From an uncultured archaeon (GTDB lineage: Archaea; Thermoproteota; Bathyarchaeia; Bathyarchaeales; Bathycorpusculaceae): a stretch of 44,136 bases of DNA. The stretch lies in NCBI GenBank assembly GCA_938023865.1, contig CALJDG010000003.1:1-44136 (forward strand). Reading direction: 5' to 3'. The position numbers and the translations under genes were made by a program. The notes beneath the pieces are model-generated. The model saw only the letters and a program-made list of their open reading frames with translations. It had not been told where the DNA came from and did not search any database. Numbering within the stretch: position 1 is the stretch's first letter; each line of letters opens with the position of its first letter. Below, piece by piece: positions 3,772 through 20,194 of this stretch.

Positions 3772-3851
<80 letters not shown>

Positions 3852-3852
3852 C

Positions 3853-3871
3853 CTGAACTATACTACTGGAG
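3853..3871. repeat. degenerate third copy of the tRNA-Glu 5' end
   Basis: CTGAACTATACTACTGGAG directly abuts the intact tRNA. It matches the same stretch of the tRNA 5' end with a few substitutions and a short gap (CTATACTAC shared, TGGAG for CGGAG). Read on the minus strand it is a tandem, diverged tRNA-Glu 5' end just before the real one. It may be the attachment half of an earlier insertion at the same site, or a copy derived from another Glu isoacceptor. Confidence 0.55.
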
Positions 3872-3875
3872 ACTT

Positions 3876-5497: not shown

Positions 5498-5817
5498 AAC
5501 CCGGGGCTTTTTCCTAACTTCTCGCGAGAACGCTTCTTCGCTTACCTAAAAACAGAAAATCTACCAATAAACGAACTAAAACAGCTGCTGAAAACCACGA
5601 TAAAAATGGAAGAGCAAGACATAAAACTAGGCCTAAAAATAAAACCCAAACGTGAAAGATAATGCCGTTCAAATGTGTAATCAGATGGCGTCGCGGTCAA
5701 CCCAAAAACTAAGCATGGAGACCTACCATAAATGCCCCCACACTGAACAAGAAAAAACGTAAACTAGCATTCGTAATAGGCAAAGCAAAAGGCGCAGGTA
5801 CCATAGCAATCCGACAT
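5498..5817. other. 320-bp region with coding remnants, no clear gene
   Basis: A-rich on the plus strand with the same look as the gene downstream. A plus frame from about 5495 to 5750 reads RERFFAYLKTENLPIN and then KLLKTTIKMEEQDIK-like helical sequence, without a usable start codon. Another frame from 5743 reads NKKKRKLAFVIGKAKGAG directly into the gene at 5818, again without ATG, GTG or TTG. It looks like decayed 5' coding sequence. Confidence 0.4.
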
Positions 5818-6321
5818 ATGCTAGAAAAAGCAGCTCAAAAATTCCCAACCAAAAAATACAACAAAACCATACACATAATCCTAAACGAAAACGACGACGA
5901 AGCCTACGAATCAGCATACCGTATAGGCCTCGCCGCCGCCCTCATAAACAAAGCCAAAACACCAGAAGAAATCCAAAAACACATACGTTACATACAAAGT
6001 GCCATGCCAGAAGAAATCTGGTTCTGGACAAGCAAACTGCTCGACGAAGAAATAGGAGAAAAAGCCCTAAATGCCCTGGCAATATTAAGCGGCGCCGCAA
6101 CAACACAAAGCAAGAGACACCCGCAGCCACAAAAAGGAACATTCTGGCCGATAGTGCGACAACGTATGCAACAAAAAGCCTTACAACTCTACCTGCAAGA
6201 TAACCCGAAAACGAAATCAAAACCGACGATAAGAGAACTACGTCAAAAAGGCTACTTACATAAAGCAAAACTTGCTACATTAAAAGAAATGAAAACCCAA
6301 TTTTCTGCAGTTTCAATTTAA
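5818..6321 (+). CDS. A-rich hypothetical protein of the integrated element
   Basis: 167 aa from the ATG at 5818, but the same frame is open back to 5713 and reads LNKKKRKLAFVIGKAKGAG just before it, so the true start may be a non-standard codon (CTG 5743) or the 5' end may be damaged. Largely helical and basic at the C-terminus (KSKPTIRELRQKGYLHKAKL, with the look of a DNA-binding tail). Codon use is strikingly A-rich (CTA, ATA, AAA), unlike the flanking core genes, which supports acquisition with the element. I do not recognise a family. It lies between the integrase remnant and the ATPase inside the tRNA-Glu repeats. Confidence 0.5.
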   Translation: MLEKAAQKFPTKKYNKTIHIILNENDDEAYESAYRIGLAAALINKAKTPEEIQKHIRYIQSAMPEEIWFWTSKLLDEEIGEKALNALAILSGAATTQSKRHPQPQKGTFWPIVRQRMQQKALQLYLQDNPKTKSKPTIRELRQKGYLHKAKLATLKEMKTQFSAVSI

Positions 6322-6328
6322 CTTATGT

Positions 6329-6399
6329 CCCCCCATAAATTCTGTTAGTTGCAGTTAACGGAAAAGTTATTTACTTATGGGGTGTAACTACTTACGGGG
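6329..6399. promoter_or_regulatory. putative operator repeats at the ATPase promoter
   Basis: CCCCATAA (6331-6338) is the inverted partner of TTATGGGG (6375-6382), and a near copy TTACGGGG follows at 6392-6399. The three boxes sit between the upstream gene and the probable TTG start at 6407, where a repressor or an autoregulator would bind. Function is inferred from arrangement only. Confidence 0.45.
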
Positions 6400-7486
6400 G
6401 TTAAGTTTGCTTTTCGACCTAAATCCAAAAACCTCTTCAAAAGAACTGTTTGGTCGGGAAAGGGAGCTTGAAGAACTTATCCGTCTTGTTCGTGCTAGGA
6501 GATGGGTTGCCGTTCTTGGGCCAAGAATGGTTGGGAAAACAAGCTTGGTCAAAGTGGCTGGAGCTGAATTGAGAAAGGCCAAAACAAAGGTTGTTTATAT
6601 GAACCTTTGGGGGGCAAAGGGAACGCACGGTCTATTAAAAGTCATGGCACGGGGTCTTAACGACGAAAAAAGTATTCTACAAGAAATAAAGGATGTGGCT
6701 CAAAGAGTTGAAGGCGTGTCCATTGGACCTAGCGGGATTTCAATATCAATCTCCAGAAAACCCATGACCACAGTGTGGGATTTGTTAATGGCGATAGGAA
6801 GCAAGGCGGGAAATTGCGTAATTGCACTTGATGAAGTTCAGGAACTTGCAGCAATATCCGGTCGCCTATTAAAACTGTTAGCCAACATTTTTAATACACA
6901 CCCAAACATAGTCTTCATATTTACTGGATCCATGTTTGGTCTTATGAAAACGTTGCTGGAGCCAACGTCGTCCTCACCCCTTTATGGACGCTCTCCTGCA
7001 AGGCTTTATCTTAATCCCTTCGAGAAAGAACTTGCCATTAGATTTTTAAGGAAAGGTTTTGAAGAGCAAAAGCTAACTCTAAGAGATGAGATAATAAATG
7101 AGGCTGTTGAAAGGCTTGACGGCATTCCCGGATGGTTAACTCTCTATGGAAACAACGTAGCAGTGCGCAAACTTCCGCATCAAAAGGCCCTTGAAGAAAC
7201 TATTTCCGAAGGCATAAAAATCGTGAAAGATGAACTTGAGCATTTTCTTGAAGGCAGAGACAAACAAGCCTATTTAGCAGCCCTTAAGGCAACAGCCATA
7301 TCAGCCCGTTGGACCGAGATAAAAGGAGCAGTAGAAATAGCAAAGGCGTCCCCTGCGAACGACGCAACAATTTACCGCATAATAGAAAACCTCAAAGCAG
7401 CTATGCTAATAGAAGAGAAAGAAAACGTTTACAGAATAAATGATCCCATGCTCCGGACACTTCTGCTAACCTCACAAATAACTTAA
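6377..7486 (+). CDS. archaeal AAA ATPase (ATPase_2 family)
   Basis: Residues 48-56 (GPRMVGKTS) form the Walker A loop, CVIALDEVQ (about 147-155) the Walker B with the DEVQ tail typical of archaeal ATPases of the Orc1/Cdc6-like STAND group, and FIFTGSMF a sensor-1-like strand. The C-terminal part (about 295-369) looks like a winged helix (NDATIYRIIENLKAAMLIEEK). Homologues usually begin (M)LFDLNPKTS, so the TTG at 6407, 30 bases inside, is the likelier start; the ATG at 6377 lies within the operator-like repeats. Such ATPases are common on archaeal plasmids and integrated elements, and this one lies just inside the right-hand attachment repeat. Its partner or target is unknown. Confidence 0.85.
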   Translation: MGCNYLRGLSLLFDLNPKTSSKELFGRERELEELIRLVRARRWVAVLGPRMVGKTSLVKVAGAELRKAKTKVVYMNLWGAKGTHGLLKVMARGLNDEKSILQEIKDVAQRVEGVSIGPSGISISISRKPMTTVWDLLMAIGSKAGNCVIALDEVQELAAISGRLLKLLANIFNTHPNIVFIFTGSMFGLMKTLLEPTSSSPLYGRSPARLYLNPFEKELAIRFLRKGFEEQKLTLRDEIINEAVERLDGIPGWLTLYGNNVAVRKLPHQKALEETISEGIKIVKDELEHFLEGRDKQAYLAALKATAISARWTEIKGAVEIAKASPANDATIYRIIENLKAAMLIEEKENVYRINDPMLRTLLLTSQIT

Positions 7487-7787
7487 GGGACGTAAGCACT
7501 TACAGGGTAAAACATGAACACACCCTTTAACAACAAAATAGAAAAAGGGGGAGGTGTGGGAGAAATCGACAACATCTAATGGATTTGACCGGACTATACT
7601 ACCGGAGCTTTCAGCCGAATAATATTCACTGTGGGCTGTATTAATTTGCTTTTCTTCTCGTCGCGTTTTAGGTTCTCAGTTTTCAAATTTCAAGTTGCTT
7701 CAACAGGTGATTGTGGCGGTTGAGGCTTAGAAAAGTCTATATTTGCAGTTTTATTTTAGTCGTTTGCATAATAGCTCAAGTGGTTTG
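7487..7787. other. element boundary and AT-rich spacer
   Basis: Holds the end of the integrated element (24-bp repeat at 7585-7608) and, beyond it, about 180 bp of T-rich sequence that would originally have been upstream of tRNA-Glu. GAATAATATT at 7617-7626 could be that tRNA's original TATA region. No coding frame is convincing. Confidence 0.4.
7585..7608. repeat. 24-bp attachment repeat, distal copy
   Basis: Exact direct copy of tRNA-Glu nucleotides 1-24 (see 3828-3851). The remaining tRNA sequence is absent here, so this is a fragment, not a second gene. It marks the far end of the 3.76-kb element. Confidence 0.85.
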
Positions 7788-8447
7788 ATGCCTTTCAAAG
7801 ATGAGTGTCGTCTTTGCGGAAGAATTCTCTCTTACAATTATCTTAGGCGATGTTGGAGATGCGGCAAGCTCTTCTGCGTTGACTGTATGGTTCCGGAAGT
7901 GGCGACAGGAGATGCTTCAAGATTGCTTTGCCTTAACTGTGCGCAGAAGGCGGTTTCTCCAAAGTCTAAAAACAAATATGCGCCACTCAGGGCCTATTTG
8001 AAGTTTAGGTCGGCTTTCACCGATTCTGTTAAGCTTTCTTTTCCGCAGATAGATGGGATTATTGGGGATAATCTTCCCATGGAGGCTTACCGCTCTGAAA
8101 AGTGGTGGGCAAATTCGACATACTCCGTGCATGCGCGGTGTTGGCTTGAGGCTGGATGGGAAACCATTGAAGTAAACTTGAAAGAGGGTTACGTAATCTT
8201 CCGCAAAACGCAGAAAATTCAAAGCGTGGCCCTTCCCAAGATGAGGAATGTTGAGAAGCTTAAAAAGTCGTTTACGCCGCCTCCCTCTAGGATCATTCAT
8301 CGCAAAAAGCCTTCGAAAACAAAGATTGCGAAGCTTTATGCTAGGCTTAAAAACTTGGAGAGGCAGAGGGTTAGCCCTCAAAAGCTTAAGGGTAGCTTTA
8401 CGCCGAAACCCCCACATGAAAAGCGAGTTTTTAAAAAGAAAGCGTGA
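7788..8447 (+). CDS. zinc-finger protein with DUF7662-like domain
   Basis: About 219 aa from the ATG at 7788 (MPFKDECRLC); a TTG at 7743 would add 15 residues. Residues about 7-50 hold four CxxC-type pairs (CRLC, CWRC, CVDC, CLNC), a treble-clef/RING-like zinc module. Residues about 65-145 follow the DUF7662 pattern: a small helix region, IDGIIGDNLPMEA, then EKWWANST, ARCWLEAGWETIEVNL and VIFRK. The tail is basic and repeats KLKxSFTPxP (KLKKSFTPPPS and KLKGSFTPKPP). Zinc binding and a nucleic-acid role are likely but inferred. It lies just upstream of tRNA-Gly on the same strand. Confidence 0.7.
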   Translation: MPFKDECRLCGRILSYNYLRRCWRCGKLFCVDCMVPEVATGDASRLLCLNCAQKAVSPKSKNKYAPLRAYLKFRSAFTDSVKLSFPQIDGIIGDNLPMEAYRSEKWWANSTYSVHARCWLEAGWETIEVNLKEGYVIFRKTQKIQSVALPKMRNVEKLKKSFTPPPSRIIHRKKPSKTKIAKLYARLKNLERQRVSPQKLKGSFTPKPPHEKRVFKKKA

Positions 8448-8487: not shown

Positions 8488-8594
8488 GCGGCCGTCGTCT
8501 AGTCTGGTTAGGACACAGACGCCGTGAAAGATGCCTTAAAGCGTGTGGAGGCCTTCCAAGCCTGCGATCCCGGGTTCGAATCCCGGCGGCCGCA
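8488..8594 (+). tRNA. tRNA-Gly (anticodon TCC) with 32-nt intron
   Basis: Acceptor strands GCGGCCG (8488-8494) and CGGCCGC (8587-8593), discriminator A 8594, and CCA encoded at 8595-8597. The D arm is GTCT...GGAC (8497-8514), and the T arm contains GGGTTCGAATCCC. The anticodon arm closes as CAGGC-CTTCCAA-GCCTG only if 32 nt (8519-8550, or one base earlier) are removed between tRNA positions 29 and 30; the anticodon is TCC. This is a non-canonical intron site (the usual one is 37/38). The same position and length recur in tRNA-Arg at 20087. Splicing by archaeal endonuclease is expected from tRNA biology; I did not resolve the bulge-helix-bulge fold. Confidence 0.9.
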
Positions 8595-8602
8595 CCAAAA
8601 AG

Positions 8603-8945
8603 ATGATCAAACATGAACGGGTAAAGTTTAAGAAAATGTCTTCTTGCAATGTTGAGTTGCAATTTACACAGAAGATTCCCTTCAGAATTAAGGGAACGCC
8701 GGGCATGTGGAAACTTTTCTTTGGGGAATTGGCTAAGCTTGGGGAAGAACTTTTGTCCTTCGACCTTTATGTATGCCCAAAATGTGGGAAGTTAGGTTTT
8801 TGCAGATGAAAAATCGATGCAGTCCCTGTTGAAGATAACGCCTAAACAATTTTTGAAAAAATGCGTTAAATGTGGAAAGGATATTCCAATAGCCTCTGAA
8901 TATTGCCAATACTGCGGAACTGGGCAGCCGCAAAAGAGAGGTTAG
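8603..8945 (+). pseudogene. zinc-ribbon protein split by a +1 frameshift
   Basis: The first frame (8603-8809) reads MIKHERVKFKKMSSCNVE and so on to YVCPKCGKLGF and then stops. Skipping one T in the T5 run at 8798-8802 continues without a break as ADEKSMQSLLKITPKQFLKK followed by CVKCGKDIP and YCQYCG, ending at 8945. Together this gives about 113 aa with two CxxC pairs in the second part (CVKC, CYC-type YCQYC) and one in the first (CPKC), a double zinc-ribbon protein. A homopolymer indel in the assembly, a recent mutation or programmed frameshifting would all explain it. The function of the family is unknown to me. The gene begins six bases after the tRNA-Gly CCA. Confidence 0.65.
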
Positions 8946-9086
8946 TTGTAGATCTTTGGCGGGCCATGTTAGATCTAAATCCCCGTTTAAATTCCCCACA
9001 TCGAGAATGACCAGTTTACTATGTCGATGAAAGAAAAAGGGAGTTCAAATCTTTCCCGGGCCTATCATAAGATTTTCTGAAGATTT

Positions 9087-9278
9087 TCAGATATGCTCTT
9101 CAGAAATCACTATCTTAAGAGAACTCTCTTTTCGAAGAATGTATTTCCCTTCAGTCGTTTTAACAATCCAGTTATAATTGACCTCTCCTCCTTCAATCGC
9201 CTTATAGCTGGCAAGAGTTCCGATTTTGTAATTATCGAGAATACGGATAATTTCTTTCTTAGTGAAGTTCACATCCAC
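9087..9278 (-). pseudogene. N-terminal stump of an APH-type kinase
   Basis: 63 aa starting MDVNFTKKEIIRILDNYKIG and continuing GGEVNYNWIVKTTEGKYILR, which is the N-terminal strand region of aminoglycoside phosphotransferase/homoserine kinase II-like proteins (glycine-rich loop and the Lys strand). The frame stops at 9087 and I found no continuation with the HxD catalytic loop on either strand, so roughly four fifths of the gene is missing. Truncation next to the proposed island boundary (9497) suggests rearrangement, but this is inference. Confidence 0.6.
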
Positions 9279-9761
9279 TTAATAGACGATTGATTCATAT
9301 AAATTATAGATCATTTCTTGACTTTGTAACTAGTGAAAAGTATCCGATAGAAAACGCAATAAATTTCGGATGCATCAATCAGTTTTCCATGATCTAGGCT
9401 TCAAAATCAATTCTACACCCAATTTCTGGATAGAAAGAGTACGAAACAGCGTCTAAATCCCGATATTTTAAACCAATATTTGAACCTATTTACTTTTGGC
9501 GGGCCCGCGGGACTCATACCAAAATGGGTTCAAGTCATAATTTTCGAGGTCTCTACTCTGAGCATTTTTGTGGTTTATCCATTGCTGTTGTTTTAATTTT
9601 TGGGGAGAATGCTTTTCGGTGTTGTGGTTGTCGTGTTCGGATGACGCGGATTTGAATGGTTTCATTTAGGTTTTTGAAGGCTATCTCCTGTAATGTTTAT
9701 GGTCGAGGGCTGAAGCTTTTTGAGCAGTTTTATGATGGTCGAGGTTCTTTAGGATATTCGC
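9279..9761. other. 483-bp non-coding region before the CRISPR array
   Basis: AT-rich, no credible gene on either strand. It contains the tRNA-Arg 3'-end copy at 9497-9511. The 10-mer ATGGTCGAGG occurs twice, at 9699-9708 and 9735-9744, just before the first repeat, spaced 36 bp (the modal spacer length here). If the array is transcribed on the minus strand, as argued for the array, this is the trailer side. Confidence 0.5.
9497..9511. repeat. copy of the tRNA-Arg 3' end (candidate att site)
   Basis: TGGCGGGCCCGCGGG here is identical and in the same orientation to 20084-20098, which is the CCA end, discriminator, acceptor 3' strand and start of the T arm of tRNA-Arg. Such a GC-rich 15-mer stands out in an AT-rich spacer. 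The 10.6 kb between the copies contain the whole CRISPR-Cas locus and an integrase remnant that abuts the tRNA, the arrangement expected for an island integrated at a tRNA 3' end. Confidence 0.6.
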
Positions 9762-10786
9762 GTTTCAAACCCTTATAGGTATTCTCGCAACTCATCAGCG
9801 GTATAGACACCACTAGTGCTAAATGGGAGTTTCAAACCCTTATAGGTATTCTCGCAACTAAATTGATGTTTATCAAGTCGTGTTTCTAAAGTTTGTTTCA
9901 AACCCTTATAGGTATTCTCGCAACTAACCTTTAATTTCTCCCTTCTCATCCATCATTGCGGTTTCAAACCCTTATAGGTATTCTCGCAACTCATCGTAAC
10001 TGTCTAAAATGCTGTTTATGGTTTGGGTTTCAAACCCTTATAGGTATTCTCGCAACCAGTGGCGAAAAATGGGAAGATTGAGGAATGTACAGCGGTTTCA
10101 AACCCTTATAGGTATTCTCGCAACCTAAAAGCTTAGCTTTCGGCACGCAAAGCTAGTTTTGTTTCAAACCCTTATAGGTATTCTCGCAACCGTTTAACTT
10201 TTTGCTGGAATGGTGTGTTTGGTGGAAGTTTCAAACCCTTATAGGTATTCTCGCAACTTAATTTTTGCCGCCATTTTTTATTCCTCACTATTATGTTTCA
10301 AACCCTTATAGGTATTCTCGCAACTTTTAAAATGCGGAACATAACCCTCACTTTTTAAAAGTTTCAAACCCTTATAGGTATTCTCGCAACGAGACTGGAG
10401 CAATGGTGGTCAACATTGAACTTGGAGTTTCAAACCCTTATAGGTATTCTCGCAACTTCTTTTCGAAGGTGAAAGTTTGAGGTGTTTAGCTGGTTTCAAA
10501 CCCTTATAGGTATTCTCGCAACATGACAAGGGGGGAGGGGGGTAGCCCTTGAAAAGCTGTTTCAAACCCTTATAGGTATTCTCGCAACATGTGAAATATT
10601 TAGCTGTGCCCGCCAGCGTCTGGTGTTTCAAACCCTTATAGGTATTCTCGCAACCCAGCAACACCACAAAGAAGGCGGAATAGGAAGGGGGTTTCAAACC
10701 CTTATAGGTATTCTCGCAACCCTTTTCAGTTTCAAACAGCATTTCCCGTTTACCGGGTTTCAAACCCTTATAGGTATTCTCGCAAC
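9762..10786 (-). CRISPR. CRISPR array, 16 repeats and 15 spacers
   Basis: Sixteen 30-nt repeats, all identical by eye, start at 9762, 9829, 9895, 9961, 10027, 10095, 10161, 10228, 10295, 10361, 10427, 10493, 10559, 10625, 10691 and 10757. Spacers are 36-38 nt (eleven of 36, three of 37, one of 38). On the plus strand the repeat begins GTTTCAAACCC and ends TCTCGCAAC; on the minus strand it begins GTTGCGAG and ends TTTGAAAC. The GAAAC 3' end and the placement of cas2 beyond 10900 argue for minus-strand transcription, with the leader at the high-coordinate end; strand is therefore inferred. Absence of any degenerate repeat suggests a young or actively maintained array. Confidence 0.98.
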
Positions 10787-10899
10787 CCAAAAGGAAAATG
10801 GGTTATTTTCTGTTTTATAGCTTTTTTGTGGCTTTTTCCAATAATTGTTCCCGTCGATTTACGATGAGAACTTGGTTATGTTTGATCGACGGTTGTGGT
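10787..10899 (-). promoter_or_regulatory. putative CRISPR leader with an 8-bp inverted repeat
   Basis: 113 bp between the last repeat and the cas2 stop. A/T-rich, with runs such as CTTTTTTG. CCGTCGAT (10851-10858) and ATCGACGG (10885-10892) form a perfect inverted repeat with 26 bp between, a plausible protein-binding site guiding integration or transcription. Leader identity rests on orientation of the repeat and proximity to cas2. Confidence 0.5.
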
Positions 10900-11163
10900 C
10901 TATATTATTGTTGCACTTTCTCCTTTCACCACTCCAAGGTTTTCCTTTGTAAGGTATGCTGTTGTTCGAAGTATGTAAAAAGTTATGGCGTCGTATTTCT
11001 TGTCTATTACTTTCGATAGGTTATCTTTTAGTCGTATGAAATTGGCATCGCTTATTTCGCCCTCGAAAACCGAATTTTGGATCCATGTAAGATATCTTCT
11101 TCCTATGCTCAGAACTTTGAGGAGCCGTTCCTCGCCAACATCATATACCATTATCACGAACAT
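10900..11163 (-). CDS. cas2: CRISPR-associated endonuclease Cas2
   Basis: 87 aa, standard Cas2 length. Starts MFVIMVYDVGEER, the ferredoxin-like beta strand with the conserved Asp (D8), followed by RRYLTWIQNSVFEGEIS, the typical Cas2 second strand. Cas2 forms the Cas1-Cas2 integration complex that inserts new spacers at the leader end. It lies six bases downstream of cas1 and is the gene next to the array, so it is the last gene of the cas6-to-cas2 transcript. Confidence 0.97.
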   Translation of the reverse strand: MFVIMVYDVGEERLLKVLSIGRRYLTWIQNSVFEGEISDANFIRLKDNLSKVIDKKYDAITFYILRTTAYLTKENLGVVKGESATII

Positions 11164-11169
11164 GTTTAC

Positions 11170-12162
11170 TTACCATTGTAAGACAAATGGCTCATACTCC
11201 TTTTCTCCAATGAGGTGCTTTTCAAGCTTGTATAGCTCAAGCCTTATCATCCTCTGGTAAGATGCCCTCATTCTTTTTCCATAGCTTATGGTTTGCTTGA
11301 GCTTGTTTTCATATTGCTCTACAAAAATCTTTCTTCCGTTTTCGTTAAAGTATACACCGCCTAACTCCTCCATATAACATGAGGGGCTAAGCATTCTTTT
11401 ATTTGTTAATGTAAATATGATCCTGTCGACTATTATCGGCTTGAAGACTTCTGCAATATCTAAGTTTAACGAAAATTTTCTGTAATTGGTAGCGTGGAGG
11501 AAGCCTATTCTAGGATCTAGATGTGTTTTATAAATTTCGCCGAGCACGGTAACGTAAAGAAGACTGTTGCCGAAGCTCAACAAAGCGTCTAACCGGCTTT
11601 TAGGCGGCCTTCGCTCCCTTTTTTCATAATGGTATTCTGCATCGTCGATGATTGTATTAAAGGAGATATAATATTGCTCTTTGGCTTGACCTTCAACGGC
11701 CATTAACTCCTCTACAGAGCAAGCCTCTCTCAGTTTAAGCAAGGTCTCTTCAAGAAATTTTATTGTCGAGCTAAGTCCTCCTTTCCTGTTATGGTAGTAG
11801 GTCACGTTTTTCAGCATATTTTTTAAACTACCTTCAGCGAACTTGCTAGCCAGAATAAGCCTTTTTGTATGATCTAGATAATGTTCACACTGTTTCAGCG
11901 TCATAAAGCCTGAGTTGTAGTGGGTTCTAGGGTAAAAACTTCCCATATAAAAGCCGTAATGATTGAAAATGTGAAGGGTTATTTCGTTCAATGACAAAAA
12001 CTCCAGAAGCCTCTTATTAAATGTCGTTTCGCCGAAAATCATCAATGAAAAAACTTCAGACACGGGTACATATTTCTTCTCACCGTTCGCCTTGATAAGG
12101 CATAATGTGTTCCCTTTTCGCTTTATCTCGCATGGACTAAAAATATAAATTGTTTTCTTCAT
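11170..12162 (-). CDS. cas1: CRISPR-associated endonuclease Cas1 (type I-B)
   Basis: 330 aa from the ATG at 12162 (MKKTIYIFSP); an upstream start at 12192 would overlap cas4 by about 29 bases and adds ten atypical residues. The metal-binding catalytic set is present: Glu in MAVEGQAKEQYY (about E157), His in GFLHATNYRKFSLNLD (about H223) and the acidic DIAEVFKP (about D235/E238). The first part is the N-terminal beta domain (GETTFNKRLLEFL, SLNEITLHIFNHYGFYMGSF). Cas1 is the integrase that adds spacers, working with Cas2 and here with Cas4. One base separates it from the cas4 stop, so the pair is likely translationally coupled. Confidence 0.97.
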   Translation of the reverse strand: MKKTIYIFSPCEIKRKGNTLCLIKANGEKKYVPVSEVFSLMIFGETTFNKRLLEFLSLNEITLHIFNHYGFYMGSFYPRTHYNSGFMTLKQCEHYLDHTKRLILASKFAEGSLKNMLKNVTYYHNRKGGLSSTIKFLEETLLKLREACSVEELMAVEGQAKEQYYISFNTIIDDAEYHYEKRERRPPKSRLDALLSFGNSLLYVTVLGEIYKTHLDPRIGFLHATNYRKFSLNLDIAEVFKPIIVDRIIFTLTNKRMLSPSCYMEELGGVYFNENGRKIFVEQYENKLKQTISYGKRMRASYQRMIRLELYKLEKHLIGEKEYEPFVLQW

Positions 12163-12163
12163 C

Positions 12164-12685
12164 TTACGCCCAGCAAAATTCCTTATATGCACATCTTCTA
12201 CAGTAGGAAATCCTCATTGGTGGAGGGGGATGTTCCAGCTCAACTATCCCCTTAATTTCGTTAAGGACTTTTAAAAGCACCTGTTGGGCTTCTGCATCTA
12301 GCTTTACCCTTATCCTCCTCTTCTCAGTTGGAACGAGGATCCAGCCGACAGCATCAACACCATACTCCTTCAGTCTGAAAAGGTAGTAGAGGAGTTGAAA
12401 ACGTGCGGCTTCAACAAATTTTGAGGATGCTTTTACCTCACACACCGCTCTTTCGGCTCTTTTGAATAAATCGATCTTTATGCCTTCCAACGATACTTCC
12501 TTTAACATTCTACGGTAGAAAATCTCATGGATCGCCCTCCCAACATCTAAGGTTGATGCGTCTTCGTCGGGGGTTATTTCGCGGCTCATTAGCCAAACCT
12601 CACGCTTACAGATGAAATAATACCAAACAAGCGTGCCCGTAATCGGTTTGCCAGAGCAAAGGATGTAGGGAAGATCGATTTGCAA
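12164..12685 (-). CDS. cas4: CRISPR-associated exonuclease Cas4
   Basis: 173 aa, TTG start preceded by GTGAGG. It has the Cas4 iron-sulphur set: Cys26 in YYFICKREVWLMS and the C-terminal YCRRCAYKEFCWA with three cysteines. The RecB-type nuclease residues are also visible: GRAIHE (His53), KIDL (Asp about 72) and CEVKAS (Glu83-x-Lys85). Cas4 trims prespacers and selects those next to a correct PAM. The position between cas3 and cas1 is standard for type I-B. Confidence 0.95.
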   Translation of the reverse strand: MQIDLPYILCSGKPITGTLVWYYFICKREVWLMSREITPDEDASTLDVGRAIHEIFYRRMLKEVSLEGIKIDLFKRAERAVCEVKASSKFVEAARFQLLYYLFRLKEYGVDAVGWILVPTEKRRIRVKLDAEAQQVLLKVLNEIKGIVELEHPPPPMRISYCRRCAYKEFCWA

Positions 12686-12697
12686 TACTACCTCACG

Positions 12698-15115
12698 TTA
12701 GAACATTAAAAATTTTGATTCCATTGTGGTTTTAAATCCTGTCTCTGGGTCATAGTATGCATCGGTTTCCTCGCGAGGCACAAGCAATACGTTAGCTTGG
12801 GCCGTTATGGGCTTAAGGCTCTTCAAGCACGTCTCGTTCTCGTAAACCTCGACAATGTAGTTCTCCATTTCAGTCCTCAACTTTCTAAGCGCCGCTTTAA
12901 GCTCGAACACTTTCTCTAAAGCTTCTTCCCTTTCCAAGGCTTTTAGGGCTTCTTTAAACTCTTTTAGTAGCCGTTCAGCCTCACCATCATATTCCATGTA
13001 AACGGGCACTTTGGGCTCTTCTTCGATGAGCGAGAAATGAGTTAATTCTTGGAAATCCAACGCCTTTATTCTTTCCAGCAGCTTCATACAATCAGGATGT
13101 TTCTCGATGTTCATTCTGTAAGAGACATCTTCGTAATACAGCTTCATCAATTCTGCGAGCTCGTGCTCTTTTACGCTCTCCTTATGGGCTATAAGTTCCA
13201 TGGTTCTCTCTGGAAGTATGCTGCCGTATATTTTTCTAGAATCCTCCCGTCCGTTTTCATCGATGACCCTGAGGACGTACACTCGACCAGCTGGAAGCCT
13301 CCAGTTCCTGTTGCATCTTCCGGCAACCTGAACGATTGAGTCGAAGGGGCCAAGATCCCTAAAGGTGACGTCGAAATCCAGGTCTACGCCGGCTTCAACA
13401 ACCTGTGTGGAAACCAGAATCACGTTGCGCCGTTCTTCCAAAAGCCTCTTCAGTAGCTCTATTCTTCTTTTCCTTTCCATGGGAATTATGCTCGTCGACA
13501 GATATGTCAACACAACTTTGGTGGGGTTCGTCAATTCATCGTTTGATCCAACCCTGACAACTTTTTTTCCTAGTCTTTCAACTAACCTTCTGTAAACCTT
13601 CTTTGAAGCCCTCACAGTATTGACAACCAGAAGCGCAGAAGTGCCCTCCGTCCACTTCGATAGGAAGAAATCCGCAAACTCCTCAGCCGTCACGGCCTTT
13701 TCAAACTGTGGCATCAACTCAGTTCTGCTCATATATTTGAAGTATTTTTCCGGCTTAGGCACCAGCTCAACGCTTTCCCCCGTGAAGATTGCTGGCATAG
13801 TGGCAGTCATTAATATGATCCTCATGTCGAAGTTCTCGACTAGGTGTAGTAGGGCATCGCGTACAAGCCTCCAATACTCAAGCGGGATCGCCTGAACCTC
13901 GTCCAGGATGAGGATGGAGCCGGCCAAGTTATGAAATTTTTTAAGCAGCGAATTTTTGCACCCAATTATGGACCGCAGAAGCTGCTCAAAGGTTGTGACG
14001 ACGAAGCTGGATTCCCATGAGTCCGTTAAAAGCAGGAGCTTATCGAGCGGAACATCCCTTAACTCCTGTGATGGGAAAAACAGGTGATGGTGCTTCAGAA
14101 GCATGGAGATGTCGGGCTTCCTCCCATGGTAGGCCGACAGCACATCCTCCACGCGAGCATGTGTCTGCTCTATTATGTTGATGTATGGCAGGCAGTAGAC
14201 TATCCTCGCATACCCGAGGCTCTCGCCGATTTTGAGCGCGGCGTGTATTCCCAGCAGGGTTTTCCCCGCTCCTGTGGGCAAAGTGATTGTGATGATCCTC
14301 GGCACGCCCTTTAAAGCTGCAGTGAGTTGTTCGTCCGCCTCTGAGAAAACGGACCTTCTGAGCACGTTTATTCTGGATGAATCCGCTGAGGCAAACCTCT
14401 TTTCAATGTATTTTGAAACGAGGTCCGAGGGAAGCGTTCTTTGTCGGCTAATTGCCTTCGCCCCTCCAGCATCCTTTTTGTCCGCGTCGATAAGTGCTGA
14501 AAACATTAGAAGCGTGTTGTAGTAGCTACGCCACCTTTCATGCTCCCCCAGTTTAAACCGCGAAATTGCTGCTAGCCTTAGCATCCGGCTTATTTCGGGC
14601 AGGAAAGCTTCAAAATTGCCCATGAAATCGGGGAACTCCTGCAGGCCGATCTCGTCCAACTCGTTGGATGTTTTGCTTATGTTGCTTCTAATGGAACTCA
14701 CCTGCTCTATGACGACGGGTTCACCCAGCCATGCAGGGTCAGCGCGTTCAAGAAGGCTGAAGCTCTTAAGGCTGCCGTGATGGGAGTCAACACAGATGAA
14801 TCCCGCGGCGGCCAGGAAAGGATCACCCAATCTCTTGTTTATCAGCCAAGACGCGAAAATTGCTGACAGCTTGGAGTGTGTTGAAAGGTCGCCGCGCACC
14901 CTTTCGCCTAAAAGGTATTTTTGAAAGAAATGTGTGTATTTGGCTACATCGTGGCATTTGCCGATGATCTCGGCAGCTTCGCTGAGCTTTGAATCAGCAA
15001 CTGAGGCAACGTATTCCCTGCATAGCCTTCCAACTTCGCTGAGGTGCCTCTTCAGTTCGATGCCTAGGTGCGAGTAAAAACGTTCACATGAAAACGCCGA
15101 CAACTCTCTCGCCAT
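12698..15115 (-). CDS. cas3: Cas3 helicase-nuclease (HD plus DExD/H)
   Basis: 805 aa, fused HD and helicase form. HD nuclease: HD55-56 in IGKCHDVAKYTHFF, further His near 80 and 111-113 (VDSHHGS). Helicase: LPTGAGKT (about 279-286, motif I), ILDEVQ (about 403-408, motif II), LMTATMPA (about 435-442, motif III), VVEAGVDLDFDV and QVAGRCNRNW (motifs V and VI). All key residues look intact. Recruited by Cascade after target recognition, it unwinds and shreds the invading DNA. The ATG lies 32 bases inside cas5, so translation is coupled. Sampled stretches of this gene are near 60% GC, well above cas1 and cas6 (see findings). Confidence 0.97.
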   Translation of the reverse strand: MARELSAFSCERFYSHLGIELKRHLSEVGRLCREYVASVADSKLSEAAEIIGKCHDVAKYTHFFQKYLLGERVRGDLSTHSKLSAIFASWLINKRLGDPFLAAAGFICVDSHHGSLKSFSLLERADPAWLGEPVVIEQVSSIRSNISKTSNELDEIGLQEFPDFMGNFEAFLPEISRMLRLAAISRFKLGEHERWRSYYNTLLMFSALIDADKKDAGGAKAISRQRTLPSDLVSKYIEKRFASADSSRINVLRRSVFSEADEQLTAALKGVPRIITITLPTGAGKTLLGIHAALKIGESLGYARIVYCLPYINIIEQTHARVEDVLSAYHGRKPDISMLLKHHHLFFPSQELRDVPLDKLLLLTDSWESSFVVTTFEQLLRSIIGCKNSLLKKFHNLAGSILILDEVQAIPLEYWRLVRDALLHLVENFDMRIILMTATMPAIFTGESVELVPKPEKYFKYMSRTELMPQFEKAVTAEEFADFFLSKWTEGTSALLVVNTVRASKKVYRRLVERLGKKVVRVGSNDELTNPTKVVLTYLSTSIIPMERKRRIELLKRLLEERRNVILVSTQVVEAGVDLDFDVTFRDLGPFDSIVQVAGRCNRNWRLPAGRVYVLRVIDENGREDSRKIYGSILPERTMELIAHKESVKEHELAELMKLYYEDVSYRMNIEKHPDCMKLLERIKALDFQELTHFSLIEEEPKVPVYMEYDGEAERLLKEFKEALKALEREEALEKVFELKAALRKLRTEMENYIVEVYENETCLKSLKPITAQANVLLVPREETDAYYDPETGFKTTMESKFLMF

Positions 15116-15836
15116 TTAACGTACACTTGAAAACCTCACAATCGACCATAACCCTTAGCGCTCTGCCCCCTCCCTCGTAAATGTAGTTCTCTTGCCTCCT
15201 CAGCTTCCTGTCTTCAGCGAAGTCCGCTGGCACAAGCTCTTCCAAGCATATCCTCCGTTCGCGCTGTGGGTAAACCTTGCTGAGGGCGGAGACAGGCACC
15301 ATGGTGTGAACCTCAATTTCGTCGCTTGGCCTGTAAACCTCGGCGTCCACAAAATCGACGTACTCCACTTCGGCTATGTTGTTGGCGGTGCCCAAGTATG
15401 GAGGATAAGCAAATCTGCGGCTCCTTATTCGTTCCGCAACCTCATTTAACAGTTTTTCGTCTTCATGGTTCAAGAACGCCCTGAAGGACAGCATAGCCGG
15501 CTCGCGCTCGCCCGAAACGAGCATGTCCACGTGCACCTGCATCGACCCCCCAACCCCCCTCAGCTTCTTTAAAGTAAGAGGCTTATCGGTCATCAAGTAG
15601 TTCAAGGTGTTTGTAACGTGCCTCACGGACGACTTCACCTGCAACGCTATCCTGCATTTTTCCGAGGAGAAAACTTCGTAATAGGAATTCCTGTCGTAGC
15701 CCATTATCGCTGCAACCAGCCCGGAAACCGCGGTTCTGGGCGGGAAGGAGTAGCTGAGGGAGCTTGTAGTGGAGAAGTGTTTTCTGAAGAGCGCGAAGAA
15801 ACCCTTTATATCGAAAACAAGCAGCTTGATGTTCAA
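15084..15836 (-). CDS. cas5: Cas5 (Cas5b/Csh-type) Cascade subunit
   Basis: 250 aa, TTG start. The N-terminus IKLLVFDIKGFFALFRKHFS with SYSFPPRTAVSGLVAAIMG is the Cas5 RAMP signature: a first RRM strand followed by the P-P-R-T-A/G-L helix. The C-terminal GERVVGVF matches the family end. Cas5 caps the 5' handle of the crRNA in Cascade and contacts Cas8. It follows cas7 by six bases and overlaps cas3 by 32 bases. Confidence 0.95.
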   Translation of the reverse strand: MNIKLLVFDIKGFFALFRKHFSTTSSLSYSFPPRTAVSGLVAAIMGYDRNSYYEVFSSEKCRIALQVKSSVRHVTNTLNYLMTDKPLTLKKLRGVGGSMQVHVDMLVSGEREPAMLSFRAFLNHEDEKLLNEVAERIRSRRFAYPPYLGTANNIAEVEYVDFVDAEVYRPSDEIEVHTMVPVSALSKVYPQRERRICLEELVPADFAEDRKLRRQENYIYEGGGRALRVMVDCEVFKCTLNGERVVGVFM

Positions 15837-15842
15837 GTCCGC

Positions 15843-16805
15843 TCACGTTCTCTTTATAGCTGCCTCCACCTCTGCCGCAGTCATTTCGTGTGGAAGAGCC
15901 GAGAACCGCTCAGGACAGCAGTTCCTAACAAGATCTTCAAAGTAGCTTAATTCCTCGCTTGTCCTCAGGTAAACCTTGGATATGACGTCTATGTTCCGCT
16001 TTACATGGTCGATCAGCCTCTCAAAGTTTATTTCCAGATCTGTGAAGTCCCTTATTACCTCCCTGCGCGGCTTAAGGGCGACGAACTTACGCAGGTCTCC
16101 GAGGACAGTTTCAGCATCTTTATATTCTATGCGCAGGTAAAGGTGGGGCATCTCACCTATCTTGCTTCTCGTTGTCGGCTGAACCTGGAGGGCTTTCCAC
16201 ACGAAGTTGTCGAAGAGTTTCAAGTCGGTCATGGTCATCCCTGTTCCCTTAGCCCTTCTGCCGCTCACGACTCCATAAAAGCCAATTAGGGAATAGTAGA
16301 TGCGCCAGTCTCTGCCCATTGTGCCATACCTTTCAGCCGCCTCTCTGCCGGAGAAAACCGATGTTATCGCAGAGGAGTCCATCAGTTCAACCGCATGAAG
16401 CGAGAAGCCCCATGTGAACTGTACTGGACCTATGAACGATTTTGAGGCACCTTTTTCCCCCTCGCCCTTGCCGATGGGTACGGTCGCTCCGAAAAGCCGC
16501 GCATCTATACACTTATTGAGCACTTCGTGAACCCTCTTCTCGTCGAGGGTTCCAAGCAGCTTCTCAACTCTCGTATCGGCCCTAACGCTTTCGCCGGAGA
16601 TCTTAGTCACATAAACGTAGTCTTCGCCGAAATGCTCGACGATGTAGTCTCGGAAAAACCTTTTGAGCCTGACGTCCGAGACGAGGTTTATGTTTGTTTT
16701 CGGGTCGATCCTCGGCCTGTTCTCCGCATCGGGGTCACCGTTTGGATTGCACACTTTCGCTTCGTATATTAACAGGATCTCGCTGTTCGGAATTTCTTCT
16801 TTCAT
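15843..16805 (-). CDS. cas7: Cas7 (Csh2-type) Cascade backbone subunit
   Basis: 320 aa from the ATG at 16805, which has a strong GGAGGTGA site upstream; a GTG at 16817 overlapping the cas8 stop (GTGA) is the alternative. EILLIYEAKVCNPNGDPDAE is the diagnostic Csh2 N-terminus, followed by RLKRFFRDYI, GATVPIG and SFIGPVQFTWG. Cas7 polymerises along the spacer part of the crRNA. Position cas8-cas7-cas5 is the standard I-B order. Confidence 0.96.
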   Translation of the reverse strand: MKEEIPNSEILLIYEAKVCNPNGDPDAENRPRIDPKTNINLVSDVRLKRFFRDYIVEHFGEDYVYVTKISGESVRADTRVEKLLGTLDEKRVHEVLNKCIDARLFGATVPIGKGEGEKGASKSFIGPVQFTWGFSLHAVELMDSSAITSVFSGREAAERYGTMGRDWRIYYSLIGFYGVVSGRRAKGTGMTMTDLKLFDNFVWKALQVQPTTRSKIGEMPHLYLRIEYKDAETVLGDLRKFVALKPRREVIRDFTDLEINFERLIDHVKRNIDVISKVYLRTSEELSYFEDLVRNCCPERFSALPHEMTAAEVEAAIKRT

Positions 16806-16813
16806 TTCGCTTC

Positions 16814-18664
16814 TCACCTCCTGCTCGTTATAGCTTGAAGAGTCGCATATGCGTACCCGGAAAGTATGTAAAACACGTTGTCTATTGGATTCCGAAGCGC
16901 TTCCAAGTTTCTATCCAACATCATCTTCATACACGCGTAGATTGCCTCATTGCGGTCGTTCAACGCCCTGTAGTTCCTCAATCCCTCAAGCGTATGGTTG
17001 GCTAGAAGTTTCACCCTCTCAGCAGACATTCCCTCAAAGTTTATCTTATTAAGCACAGCTTTTTTCTCATCGCCCTTGTTGTACTGTTCTATCCCTATCT
17101 TTCCAACGAGGACTCCGAGCAAGAAAAGCGCCTTCTGCCACTCCGCATATCCCACCGCTGAGAAGAAAGCTTCAACGTCTTCGTCAGGGATTTTGACGGA
17201 ATCTGCCTTGCTCTCTAACCCCATTTTAGTAACCCCAACTTCTCCTAAAAGTTTTAGTAACAAGTTGTACTTTAAAAGACCTCTGCAAAGCCATGGCTCC
17301 CATCCGCCTTTTTTGGGCCGTTCTATATCGTATCCCTCATATGCCTCGTACCTATTAATCCTGGCAAAAAGAACCGCCCTGGAAATTATGTTTTCAAAGG
17401 GATAGGCTGTGTTGGTCATCATCGAATCGAACAGCATCACCAAAGGTTCCCATTCAACCCTATCCCGCGTCTTCTTTAAAGGAAATATTTTTTTAATATT
17501 TTCGAACCCGATGGACCATTGTTCAATTGCCTCATGGAATATCGCTGCGGCTACTTCCGAAATTTTATAGGATAATCGGGCCAATTCTGGCAGCCTCATC
17601 AATGGCACGTCTTGAATTAGATATTGGAAAGAAAAGTGCGATGATCTCCTGTATCCAAATAACAAGTTCAAGAAGATGCGCGCAGAACCATACTGGCTCT
17701 CCATGAGGCCATCCATGAGCGTTTCGACCTCCTCCAGGCTTCTGTAAGCCTTTACCACATTGAAAGCTGATCGCACTTTCTGGGCAATGCTTTCCAAATC
17801 CGCGTATGACAATTTCATCCCCATGAACTTGGGTATGATGGAGGTCTTCAATTTCACAGGAGATTCGTCTCCGATCGTTGCGACCAAATTTTGCTCTACA
17901 AATCTCAAGCCCAGCACGAGCTTTTCCTTGCAGTCCGGACATATAGCGTGTGTTTTCAACATGTTTTCAGGTTTTCTACTTAATCCGGAAATGAAGCCCG
18001 TTTTGTCAACATTATAGATGCATAGCAACGTCCCCTCAGGGTAGGATGGGTTAGTCAACACCTCCTTTTTCTCACCGCAAATATGGCATCTTCCAGGCAG
18101 AATTGGGTACTCTTTACTTCCAGCCGCATACTGCATAAATCGCAGGAACTTCCGGTAGCCAGGCTCCTTGACCAACTCTATGACTTTTCCATCCTTTCTC
18201 ACACAAGCCGTAAATAGGGCAATTTCTCTCAGACAATGTCCCTTTTGGGTAAGCACGGCTTCAATATCATAAGCATGCTTCTTGTCCGGAAAGAACTTCT
18301 CCACAACCTCGCTGAAAATGCGCTGCAACCTCCTTATGTCTTCATCAGTAAACGCCCTTTCGTTGATTTCGCTGATTATGCGGCCAATAGCCCACTTCTC
18401 AGGCTTGCGTGGATCAAGCAGGTACTTTGGGTTATTGGTGGTCAGTACAACCTGCGGTTTCTGGCCTACTGCATTACCGATCCAAAAAAACTCCTTCGCC
18501 CTTTCCACATCACATTTAATGCCACAGTCACAATCCAATTTACCGTTATCCAGGTCAAAAATAATTCTAGCGAGCAAGGTTCCTCTGCCTTTAATCCTTT
18601 CTGGGAGGAACTCAAACCCGTTTGAGAACAGCACCTCGCCAATCTCCCTCAATGCATCAAACAT
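16814..18664 (-). CDS. cas8b: Cas8b (Csh1-type) Cascade large subunit
   Basis: 616 aa, usual length for Csh1. Two Cys pairs form a zinc site: CHICGEKKEVL (about residue 193) and CPDCKEKL (about 238), as in Csh1. A further CDCGIKC lies near 38-46. The Cas8 subunit recognises the PAM and helps load Cas3. The ATG shares a base with the cas6 TAA (TAATG), with GAGGTGG upstream. Family assignment relies on position, length and the zinc site, because Cas8 proteins diverge quickly. Confidence 0.9.
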   Translation of the reverse strand: MFDALREIGEVLFSNGFEFLPERIKGRGTLLARIIFDLDNGKLDCDCGIKCDVERAKEFFWIGNAVGQKPQVVLTTNNPKYLLDPRKPEKWAIGRIISEINERAFTDEDIRRLQRIFSEVVEKFFPDKKHAYDIEAVLTQKGHCLREIALFTACVRKDGKVIELVKEPGYRKFLRFMQYAAGSKEYPILPGRCHICGEKKEVLTNPSYPEGTLLCIYNVDKTGFISGLSRKPENMLKTHAICPDCKEKLVLGLRFVEQNLVATIGDESPVKLKTSIIPKFMGMKLSYADLESIAQKVRSAFNVVKAYRSLEEVETLMDGLMESQYGSARIFLNLLFGYRRSSHFSFQYLIQDVPLMRLPELARLSYKISEVAAAIFHEAIEQWSIGFENIKKIFPLKKTRDRVEWEPLVMLFDSMMTNTAYPFENIISRAVLFARINRYEAYEGYDIERPKKGGWEPWLCRGLLKYNLLLKLLGEVGVTKMGLESKADSVKIPDEDVEAFFSAVGYAEWQKALFLLGVLVGKIGIEQYNKGDEKKAVLNKINFEGMSAERVKLLANHTLEGLRNYRALNDRNEAIYACMKMMLDRNLEALRNPIDNVFYILSGYAYATLQAITSRR

Positions 18665-19398
18665 TAAACCACCTCAAACATTCCAAGGCCCTGGGAGTTT
18701 TTAGCGCCGAGGCCCGCTTCATACGCCGTCGTAATGAGTGCCCTAGGACCAGCCAATGAAAAACGCCCCATCCAACCCTTCACCAGGGTGCCTTTGTACA
18801 TTACCACCACTTCCTTAACCCTTAGAGGCTTAACCACGATGTCCGATTTTATATTTTTGCTAGAAAGCAAAAAATGCTTCTTCTTTATATTGGAGTTTAT
18901 AAGAACTGAAAACTCTTTCTCGTAGGGTGAGAAATAATACGTCTTTTTCTTGCCGTCAGGGGTCATAAGGGTGCTGTACACGGTTAGGGGGGAAAGCATG
19001 TGGATCTTTATTTTGCCGTTTTTCATAGCGGGTTTTGCAGGGAAAGCCAATTCAGCGACCTTAAGGGTTCGCCGACCCAAAACAATGAAGCCCTTCGTTA
19101 CAATTGTATTTGTAAGATCTTCAACAAATTTTTCAATGGGAGAAGAAACATGCAACGTTATGTCGCCCTTGTAGATAAACCGTTTGTTATCTTTATCTAA
19201 CTTGCAATGCCCCTCGAGCCTTGAAAACGTGAACATTTTGAACTGCCTTTTGCCAAAAAGGAAACCCTTATCATGGAGAAAATCAGCCAATTCTCGAGAG
19301 ATATTGCGATAAATAGCGGCTTGAACGAGGCGATTATAATCTACAGGTAAAACAACACACCCGCTTTCCGGATCTTTAAGCGTCAATCGCATTCTCAC
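18664..19398 (-). CDS. cas6: Cas6 pre-crRNA endoribonuclease
   Basis: 244 aa, GTG start (an ATG two codons later is possible). The C-terminal GLGAKNSQGLGMFEVV is the glycine-rich loop that defines Cas6, and the two RAMP/ferredoxin halves are visible. A His in the N-terminal part (FLHDKGFLFGKR) is a candidate catalytic residue. Cas6 cuts within the repeats to give crRNAs with an 8-nt 5' handle. As first gene of the operon it lies nearest the promoter region at 19409-19449. Confidence 0.95.
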   Translation of the reverse strand: MRMRLTLKDPESGCVVLPVDYNRLVQAAIYRNISRELADFLHDKGFLFGKRQFKMFTFSRLEGHCKLDKDNKRFIYKGDITLHVSSPIEKFVEDLTNTIVTKGFIVLGRRTLKVAELAFPAKPAMKNGKIKIHMLSPLTVYSTLMTPDGKKKTYYFSPYEKEFSVLINSNIKKKHFLLSSKNIKSDIVVKPLRVKEVVVMYKGTLVKGWMGRFSLAGPRALITTAYEAGLGAKNSQGLGMFEVV

Positions 19399-19408
19399 GG
19401 ATCAAAAG

Positions 19409-19449
19409 CCACCTTGAACACTAAATTTATTGCAATTACCTTTAAAAAT
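19409..19449 (-). promoter_or_regulatory. putative promoter and ribosome-binding site of the cas operon
   Basis: On the minus strand a TATA-like ATTTTTAAAGG (19439-19449) lies about 42 bases before the cas6 GTG, and AAGGTGG (19409-19415) lies ten bases before it, as a ribosome-binding site. Transcription start is expected about 25 bases from the TATA box, leaving a short leader. Not otherwise tested. Confidence 0.45.
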
Positions 19450-19546
19450 GATGCGCATAATTAAGTATCTAACTATAAGATTCGTTTTATGTTAGCAGCG
19501 ATTGATGGAACATGTTTATATGGTGTTCCAGCCCATTCCTCTTCTG

Positions 19547-20026
19547 TTAACGTTGGGGATTCCAGTTTTTCCATGTGTTGGCCTCTCCTGCTTCGGTTTT
19601 AGGCACGATCAGCCATATGTCGTAGAAAAGCGTTGGCCTAAACATTCTCGGTATCTCTGCGAGGAACTCTAGGATTATGCTATCTTCGGTTTCAGCTCCA
19701 GACCTGTAAAAAACCTTTTTCAGGCAGGGTTCCGAACATGCCCAACACATAGCTTTGTTTCCTAACGGATTTTCGTCGCATTCAATCACTCCACAATCAC
19801 ACCCATCCCCCTCAAGATATGAAACACGGTCTAAAAGCAGGTTATACAGCTCCCCCTCACTTATCGCGACAAGCTGCCTAGGCGAAGTCTTAAAATGCTC
19901 ACAAAAGCCCCAAGCCTGCGGAGGTAAACATCAGCCGTAACCCTTGAGCCCGCGGGCAACATTTTCATACCAGCGCCTAACATCATTATCAGCAAGCAAA
20001 TAACCATACTTAGATTTACCGGCCAC
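19547..20026 (-). pseudogene. truncated, frameshifted integrase N-terminus fused to unrelated tail
   Basis: From GTG 20026 the frame reads KYGYLLADNDVRRWYENVAR, the usual beginning of archaeal tyrosine integrases. One frame over it continues SRVTADVYLRRLGAF, then back in the first frame CEHFKTSPRQLVAISEGE and LYNLLLDRVSYLEG. Two compensating one-base indels about 40 bases apart therefore break the core-binding domain. After that the frame passes without a stop into GCDCGVIECDENPLGNKAM and CWACSEPCLKKVF (80 aa to 19547), which is not integrase-like; it is Cys-rich and unknown to me. The catalytic domain is missing. A TATA-like TTTATATAG lies at 20055-20063. It starts 58 bases from the tRNA-Arg CCA end. 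Confidence 0.7.
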
Positions 20027-20083
20027 AGCCTGTCCCCAAGGGAATAATTTACTGACTATATAAAGGACTCGAACCCCAAAAAG

Positions 20084-20098
20084 TGGCGGGCCCGCGGG
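20084..20098. repeat. tRNA-Arg 3' end, candidate att site of the CRISPR island
   Basis: TGGCGGGCCCGCGGG covers the encoded CCA (20084-20086), the discriminator and acceptor 3' strand, and the first T-arm bases of tRNA-Arg. It is identical to 9497-9511. An integrase remnant lies immediately on the island side. Confidence 0.6.
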
Positions 20099-20194
20099 GA
20101 TTTGAACCCCGGTTCTCCGGCTCCGGAGGCTTGCGCACATGCATGCACAAAAAATGCATGTTCGGCGCCTTAATCCATACTGGGCTACGGGCCC
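20087..20194 (-). tRNA. tRNA-Arg (anticodon CCG) with 32-nt intron
   Basis: Minus strand. Acceptor strands GGGCCCG (20194-20188) and CGGGCCC (20094-20088) pair perfectly; discriminator G, CCA encoded at 20086-20084. The T arm contains GGGGTTCAAATCCCC. The anticodon arm CCGGC-CTCCGGA-GCCGG, anticodon CCG, forms only after removing 32 nt (20131-20162) between positions 29 and 30. The intron contains self-complementary CATGCA/TGCATG. Intron length and site are the same as in the tRNA-Gly at 8488. The 3' end appears to serve as an integration site (see 9497-9511). Confidence 0.9.

Follow-up and report, generated by a model that had tools for sequence, protein, structure and literature searches.

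The window analysed here, a stretch of 44,136 nucleotides from contig CALJDG010000003.1 in the metagenome-assembled genome of an uncultured Bathyarchaeota archaeon (1,651,322 bases or about 1.65 Mb, 80% complete with 5% contamination), contains a clustered regularly interspaced short palindromic repeats (CRISPR)-Cas locus that lies between a gene for transfer RNA (tRNA)-Arg(CCG) and a second copy of the 3' end of that gene. Its array (9762-10786, plus strand) consists of 16 repeats of 30 bp (GTTTCAAACCCTTATAGGTATTCTCGCAAC) and 15 spacers of 36-38 bp, for which no match was found in the examined loci at up to six mismatches or, for three spacers searched as exact 22-mers, in IMG/VR. Next to the array lie eight full-length cas open reading frames (ORFs) on the minus strand, identified by NCBIfam profiles and arranged as cas2-cas1-cas4-cas3-cas5b-cas7-cas8b-cas6: cas2 (10900-11163; TIGR01573, 8.3e-09), cas1b (11170-12192; TIGR03641, 2.6e-122), cas4 (12164-12685; TIGR00372, 1.2e-23), cas3 with HD nuclease and helicase (12698-15115; TIGR01587, 5.5e-39, and TIGR01596, 1.5e-19), cas5b (15084-15836; TIGR02592, 1.3e-31), cas7 (Csh2; 15843-16817; TIGR02590, 6.8e-61), cas8b (Csh1/TM1802; 16814-18664; TIGR02591, 1.4e-35, and TIGR02556, 5e-38), and cas6 (18664-19398; TIGR01877, 4.6e-36). 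The presence of cas1b, cas3, cas5b, cas7 (Csh2), cas8b, and cas6 together with an array assigns the locus to type I-B. Between cas6 and the tRNA are an 80-aa ORF (19547-19789, minus strand), which has no Pfam match and was not found in the cas loci of relatives, and the relic of a tyrosine integrase gene (19802-20026, minus strand). Nothing else of substance lies between the two tRNA ends: besides the cas genes, no further long ORF was found in 9512-20083, and hence no replication module of the kind that characterizes a cryptic integrated element. We think it likely that this locus, spanning 9512-20083, came in as cargo when an element inserted site-specifically into the 3' end of tRNA-Arg(CCG), and that the element has since lost its integrase.

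The tRNA-Arg(CCG) gene (20084-20194, minus strand) was missed by ARAGORN because of an intron of approximately 32 nt on the 5' side of the anticodon stem, and its removal in silico yields tRNA-Arg(CCG). The 15-mer TGGCGGGCCCGCGGG at 20084-20098 forms the terminal 15 nt of this gene, with the CCA encoded, and occurs in identical orientation at 9497-9511 (minus strand, CCCGCGGGCCCGCCA). The tRNA is intact and its 3' end is directly repeated at the two ends of the island, so that the copy in the tRNA represents the core of the attachment (att) site on the attL side and the copy at 9497 the attR core. Within the window, no third copy was found at up to two mismatches (0.05 expected), and the exact 15-mer is present only twice in the whole assembly. 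Part of the core is palindromic (GCGGGCCCGC). At 15 bp it is not unusually short, since att cores of only 8 bp have been noted in Thaumarchaeota (PMC8371274). Introns at non-standard places were also observed in tRNA-Gly (8488-8597) as well as in tRNA-Arg(CCG) (20084-20194), and such introns are the reason why ARAGORN misses or mistypes tRNA-Arg in many relatives.

An empty site with joined flanks, which the initial annotation of this DNA had proposed to look for, is present in both close relatives, G001 and G002, which belong to the same genus as the window genome (order-wide comparisons covered 163 genomes of the order; tRNA and att counts refer to the examined loci, except for pattern searches). 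The distance between the convergent tRNA-Gly and tRNA-Arg(CCG) genes is 41 bp in G001 and 355 bp in G002 but 11.5 kb in the window, where tRNA-Gly(TCC), which also contains an intron, is the far host landmark of the site (8488-8597, plus strand). Beyond the tRNA-Arg end, both relatives have tRNA-Gly and then a gene matching 7743-8447 of the window. On the other side, tRNA-Arg and its neighbors (a 166-aa protein and FBP aldolase/phosphatase) are kept in most relatives, whose match to the window ends at, or a few bases from, the tRNA-Arg 3' end in nearly all cases; this flank is found without this CRISPR-Cas locus in approximately 20 relatives. The insert and both flanks share one contig, and an assembly chimera would therefore require the accidental rejoining of syntenic neighbors.

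The sequences adjoining the two cores are arms of an integrase attachment site. A P' arm (CTTTTTGGGGTTCGAGTCC; 20065-20083, minus strand) follows immediately after the CCA of the tRNA. An arm of the form CCA-NN-TTTTGGGTTCRAGTCC, followed by an AT-rich stretch, separates the tRNA from intact integrases of the order and adjoins them in G001, G046, G039, G056, and L215, with variants in G008, G027, and G038. At the other end, 225 bp from the array, is a P arm (GACTTGAACCCATTTTGGTATGAGT; 9512-9536, minus strand), so that the minus strand reads, outward from the island, GACTTGAACCCATTTTGGTATGAGT and then CCCGCGGGCCCGCCA. When the 25-mer of this P arm was searched in the 163 order genomes at up to three mismatches, it was found, outside the window, at 15 places in 13 genomes (16 in 14 with the window counted), whereas the reversed pattern used as control gave none. 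At 9 of the 15 other places the P arm is joined to a tRNA 3' end according to an automatic 10-mer match, compared with 0.6% of random positions, and two further places end by eye in a tRNA-like ...CCACCA. In addition, the P arm includes GACTTGAACCCA; its exact reverse complement, TGGGTTCAAGTC, is the arm site next to the intact integrases in G046 and G039. This inverted arm site and the recurrence of the P arm establish 9497 as a true att site of the pNOB8-type integrase family described below.

The integrase relic starts with a GTG codon 58 bp from the CCA, and its homology spans 20017-19802. Only the N-terminal 72 or so of about 425 residues of a pNOB8-type tyrosine integrase are kept, with changes of reading frame, and the C-terminal part was not found anywhere in the window. 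Over 72 aa, the relic, when read through, shares approximately 78% of its residues with the intact integrase of G001. Thus, an integrase of the right family adjoins one att site, but only as an N-terminal remnant, and its broken state is why we call the island a remnant rather than an active element. In the intact relatives (about 425 residues), the R..YxxR..Y signature is present, with R148, Y264xxR267, and Y302 invariant in A1, whereas this catalytic region is gone from the window copy. The assignment to the pNOB8 type agrees with the unsplit integrase gene and the P' arm that separates the tRNA end from the integrase start in the intact relatives inspected. Genomes of the order contain intact members of the family directly downstream of the 3' ends of tRNAs for Ile, Ser, Arg, Lys, Gly, Val, and others; G038, from another family of the order, has an integrase of this kind at tRNA-Arg with the same neighbor gene. 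Among named genomes, the family is found in Hadesarchaea, Methanomethylicota, Thermoplasmata, and Thaumarchaeota, and ARAGORN places a tRNA right before the integrase in 46 of the 74 loci with sufficient upstream sequence, with more seen by eye. No distal att site was found within 7-50 kb for the elements with intact integrases in G008, G014, G001, G010, G034, and G056. A second subgroup of the integrase family (L101, L102, L036, L093, and L100) follows tRNAs without an encoded CCA and has the arm CACTTAAATTTTTAAGTGAATCCTTAAATAT and a different core boundary.

The initial annotation had described the pair of 15-mers in the same orientation as the tRNA-Arg 3' end with its CCA, the 16-repeat array and eight cas genes of type I-B between them, and a broken integrase N-terminus 58 bp from the tRNA end, and had taken them together as an island integrated at tRNA-Arg with CRISPR-Cas as cargo. 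All these features were recovered as described, and the island is further supported by the empty site, the core confined to two copies, and the P arm joined to tRNA ends; the 15-bp repeat, regarded at that time as the weak point, turns out to be the core of a recurring att site. What needs revision is the view of the DNA around 9497 as host flank, as its left side holds a second att-bounded relic, ending at 8957, rather than plain chromosome.

This second relic, of a different arm type (type 2, the CRISPR island being type 1), has a P' arm at 9459-9496 (AAAGTAAATAGGTTCAAATATTGGTTTAAAATATCGGG, minus strand), directly beside the attR core of the island. A near-identical copy is present in G024:C22 (L139), and a similar start follows the tRNA-Arg of G018. 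Its distal att at 8957-9000 (minus strand) consists of the P arm GGGGAATTTAAACGGGGATTTAGATCTA and a partial core GGCCCGCCA. In G024:C22, the near-identical copy of AAAGTAAATAGGTTCAAATATTGGTTTAAAATATCGGG is directly preceded by GGAGAATTTAAACGGGGATTTGAACCTA-CTCGGGCCCGCCA, and the latter motif is also found in the window at 8970-8997, followed by GGCCCGCCA at 8957. Considering that G024:C22 joins the AAAGTAAATAGGTTCAAATATTGGTTTAAAATATCGGG-like arm to this P arm motif, 8957-9496 is what remains of an att-bounded element that also targeted tRNA-Arg but was of a second type, the two elements having accreted in tandem. The type-2 P arm was found in 10 genomes, at 14 places in total (control 0), and a tRNA-end 10-mer adjoins it at 10 of the 14. 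In G018 the order is reversed: a type-2 element, which carries a 414-aa gene, adjoins the tRNA, and the core and a type-1 P' arm come next. The type-2 relic of the window is probably the older one, as it lies farther from the tRNA. Within it, a degraded tRNA 3' end at 9034-9110, followed by TAAGATTTTCTGAAGATTTTCAGATATG, represents a third att-like arm type; similar joints (..GGGCTACCATAAGATTTTCTTAAGAA) are present in G026, G002:C15, G035, and contig C84 of the same genome. The degraded end is another sign that the site was used repeatedly. The remaining DNA from tRNA-Gly to the outermost att (8598-8956) contains a frame-shifted zinc-ribbon-like gene (8612-8918) directly downstream of tRNA-Gly and is 70% similar to DNA of G016:C44; its alignment similarity to the tRNA-Gly to tRNA-Arg spacers of G001 and G002 was no higher than that of shuffled sequences. 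The stretch with the zinc-ribbon-like gene is perhaps itself an inserted relic.

The following course of events is likely. A circular element would have carried an attP in which a tRNA-like 15-bp core lay between a P arm and a P' arm bearing TGGGTTCRAGTC sites in inverted orientation, and the pNOB8-type tyrosine integrase encoded beside the junction would have recombined it with attB, the tRNA 3' end, acting through these arm sites. Such an event would preserve the tRNA at 20084 and place a second copy of its 3' end at 9497. By then the target would already have been occupied by the older, smaller element of the other type (now 8957-9496), giving the tandem arrangement; later, the integrase gene lost its last 350 or so codons, which would have fixed the island while the cas genes and array stayed intact. 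What the sequence shows directly is the empty site, the att core with its two arms, the relics of the integrase and of the tandem element, and the intact cas ORFs. The cas genes would have been carried in by the integration itself, and entry as cargo is the simplest reading.

Several findings weigh against entry as cargo or are neutral. No cas genes are present within 10 kb of the family integrase in any of 80 named loci. On their short contigs, the cas loci of G025, G129, and G044 have no tRNA, integrase, or P arm nearby. Cas proteins are 76-80% identical to those of G025 as compared with 82-84% for host proteins, and the relatives rank by host kinship; this parallel divergence gives no indication of a distant donor, and the lineage may have had the cas genes for a long time. 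The island could thus have been there first, with the cas locus reaching it by some other path. In favor of entry as cargo, Cas8b was detected in 5 of the 163 order genomes (one being a weak fragment) and in neither congener. Among named genomes, no Cas8b relative was confirmed. The guanine-cytosine content of the island (45.2%) does not deviate from that of its flanks (42.0-43.8%), so that the comparison of composition and phylogeny suggested in the initial annotation gave a neutral result: acquisition of the locus from elsewhere is supported by its position and patchy presence, but not by a foreign signature.

Of the alternatives, the one that survives best accepts the island as real but has CRISPR-Cas enter it secondarily, through recombination (homologous or illegitimate) with a locus that was resident or came from a donor, so that the first cargo and the bulk of the integrase were replaced. 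The cut of the integrase at about residue 72, with the remainder missing rather than displaced, would fit such an event, as would the other cargo of family elements with visible ends (an ATPase-like gene in G047 and an AbrB/PIN toxin-antitoxin-like pair in G083) and the lack of cas genes near the other family integrases noted above. However, the island retains no remnant of other cargo or of a replication module, and its array comes close to the P arm, and we consider secondary entry unlikely. It is far less probable that the I-B locus is ancestral in the family, that the side of tRNA-Arg is its old location, and that the empty sites of G001 and G002 are deletions. Although cas distances that follow host distances would be expected from an ancestral locus, a far-end att core with the family P arm and a near-end integrase would not, nor would the flank lacking this locus in so many relatives, and no tRNA-Arg lies near the cas loci of G025 and G129 on their short contigs. 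Slightly less credible still is a single 11.1-kb element with its distal end at 8957 and an internal duplication at 9497. The att relic at 8957 is real and of the same general build, and the 359 bp of 8598-8956 are about as long as the 355-bp spacer of G002; however, the P arm at 9512 matches the arm site of the integrase family, the arm at 9459 matches that at 8970, to which it is joined in G024, and the G018 arrangement (type-2 P arm, then core and type-1 P' arm) implies that the two arm types are separate units. As the arm types pair differently, 8957 as the only distal end was rejected in favor of two tandem elements. A chance match with nothing integrated, for which the short and partly palindromic core might speak, can practically be dismissed in view of the two copies in 1.65 Mb with no third in window or genome, the empty site, and the recurrent P arm with a control of zero.

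CRISPR-Cas systems are patchily distributed and thought to be horizontally mobile, but the vehicle and its exact scar are rarely visible. Here they can be read to the single base: for an entire adaptive immune locus, which then lost its integrase, the sequence shows the empty site, the target and core, the two arms, and the family of the integrase. The conserved P and P' arms also offer a simple search pattern for tRNA-anchored islands in uncultured archaea, including those without an integrase. Type I-B systems on integrated elements are already known: the cryptic integrated elements NitVie-E4 and NitEve-E4 of Thaumarchaeota carry the complete cas genes of a type I-B system and, beside them, a CRISPR array (PMC6563490, Krupovic et al. 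2019); like the window island, they are archaeal and have direct-repeat attachment sites. At 20.2 kb, NitVie-E4 is about twice as long as the 10.6-kb island, and replication modules are described in such elements (PMC6563490), whereas the island contains almost only CRISPR-Cas and differs further in its Bathyarchaeota host, broken integrase, and tandem second relic. It is thus a compact, immobilised variant of this kind of element. The location of the integrase gene outside the tRNA, the use and regeneration of the tRNA 3' end, and the R..YxxR..Y signature of the intact relatives are shared with elements of pNOB8-type (type II) integrases (PMC8371274); by contrast, the cores described for the pNOB8 integrases of Sulfolobales measure 40-50 bp rather than 15 bp (PMC8371274). 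The window differs further in its bipartite P/P' arms, which are conserved and include an inverted arm site, and in the loss of the catalytic part. CRISPR-Cas on integrated mobile islands is also known from bacteria, in Vibrio genomic islands (PMC6360697) and, with CRISPR-Cas9, in an integrative and conjugative element of Campylobacter (PMC8743540). Islands like the present one are not described in the relevant passages of a survey of viruses and defence in Bathyarchaeia (PMC10848311).

Smaller units with the same general layout were found elsewhere in the order. G047 (L167, G047:C116, 3850-5944) has a 2.0-kb att-bounded unit at tRNA-Arg(CCG) with the same att pair as the island; its cargo is by eye one archaeal ATPase-like gene with a single break of frame, and it has no integrase and a degenerate P' arm. 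In G083 (L164, G083:C49, 2967-4135), a 1.07-kb att-bounded unit at tRNA-Pro also lacks an integrase, and its sole cargo is a pair of AbrB-like and PIN-domain-like genes that by eye resembles a toxin-antitoxin system. We may speculate, quite tentatively, that tRNA 3' ends in Bathyarchaeota serve as docking sites for small att-bounded cargo cassettes (with the CRISPR-Cas locus, the ATPase-like gene of G047, the AbrB/PIN pair of G083, and the 414-aa gene of the G018 type-2 element as examples), the short ones being integrase-less, moved in trans by resident integrases through the conserved P/P' arms, and accreting in tandem, in an integron- or satellite-like collecting of defence genes.

Another tRNA of the window, tRNA-Glu(CTC) (3775-3851), also shows signs of insertion. 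Approximately 24 bp of its 5' part are duplicated at 7585-7608, and the 3.7 kb in between (3852-7584), with a broken Phage_integrase gene near 4036-4407, are absent from G001 and G002; this insertion is an integration at the 5' part of a tRNA. Directly downstream of the 3' end of the same tRNA is an intact 336-aa 'Archaeal phage integrase' (PF16795; 2658-3668), a 67% identical homolog of which adjoins tRNA-Arg(TCG) in G001:C3. With this integrase at its 3' end and the insertion at its 5' part, tRNA-Glu appears to have elements on both sides.

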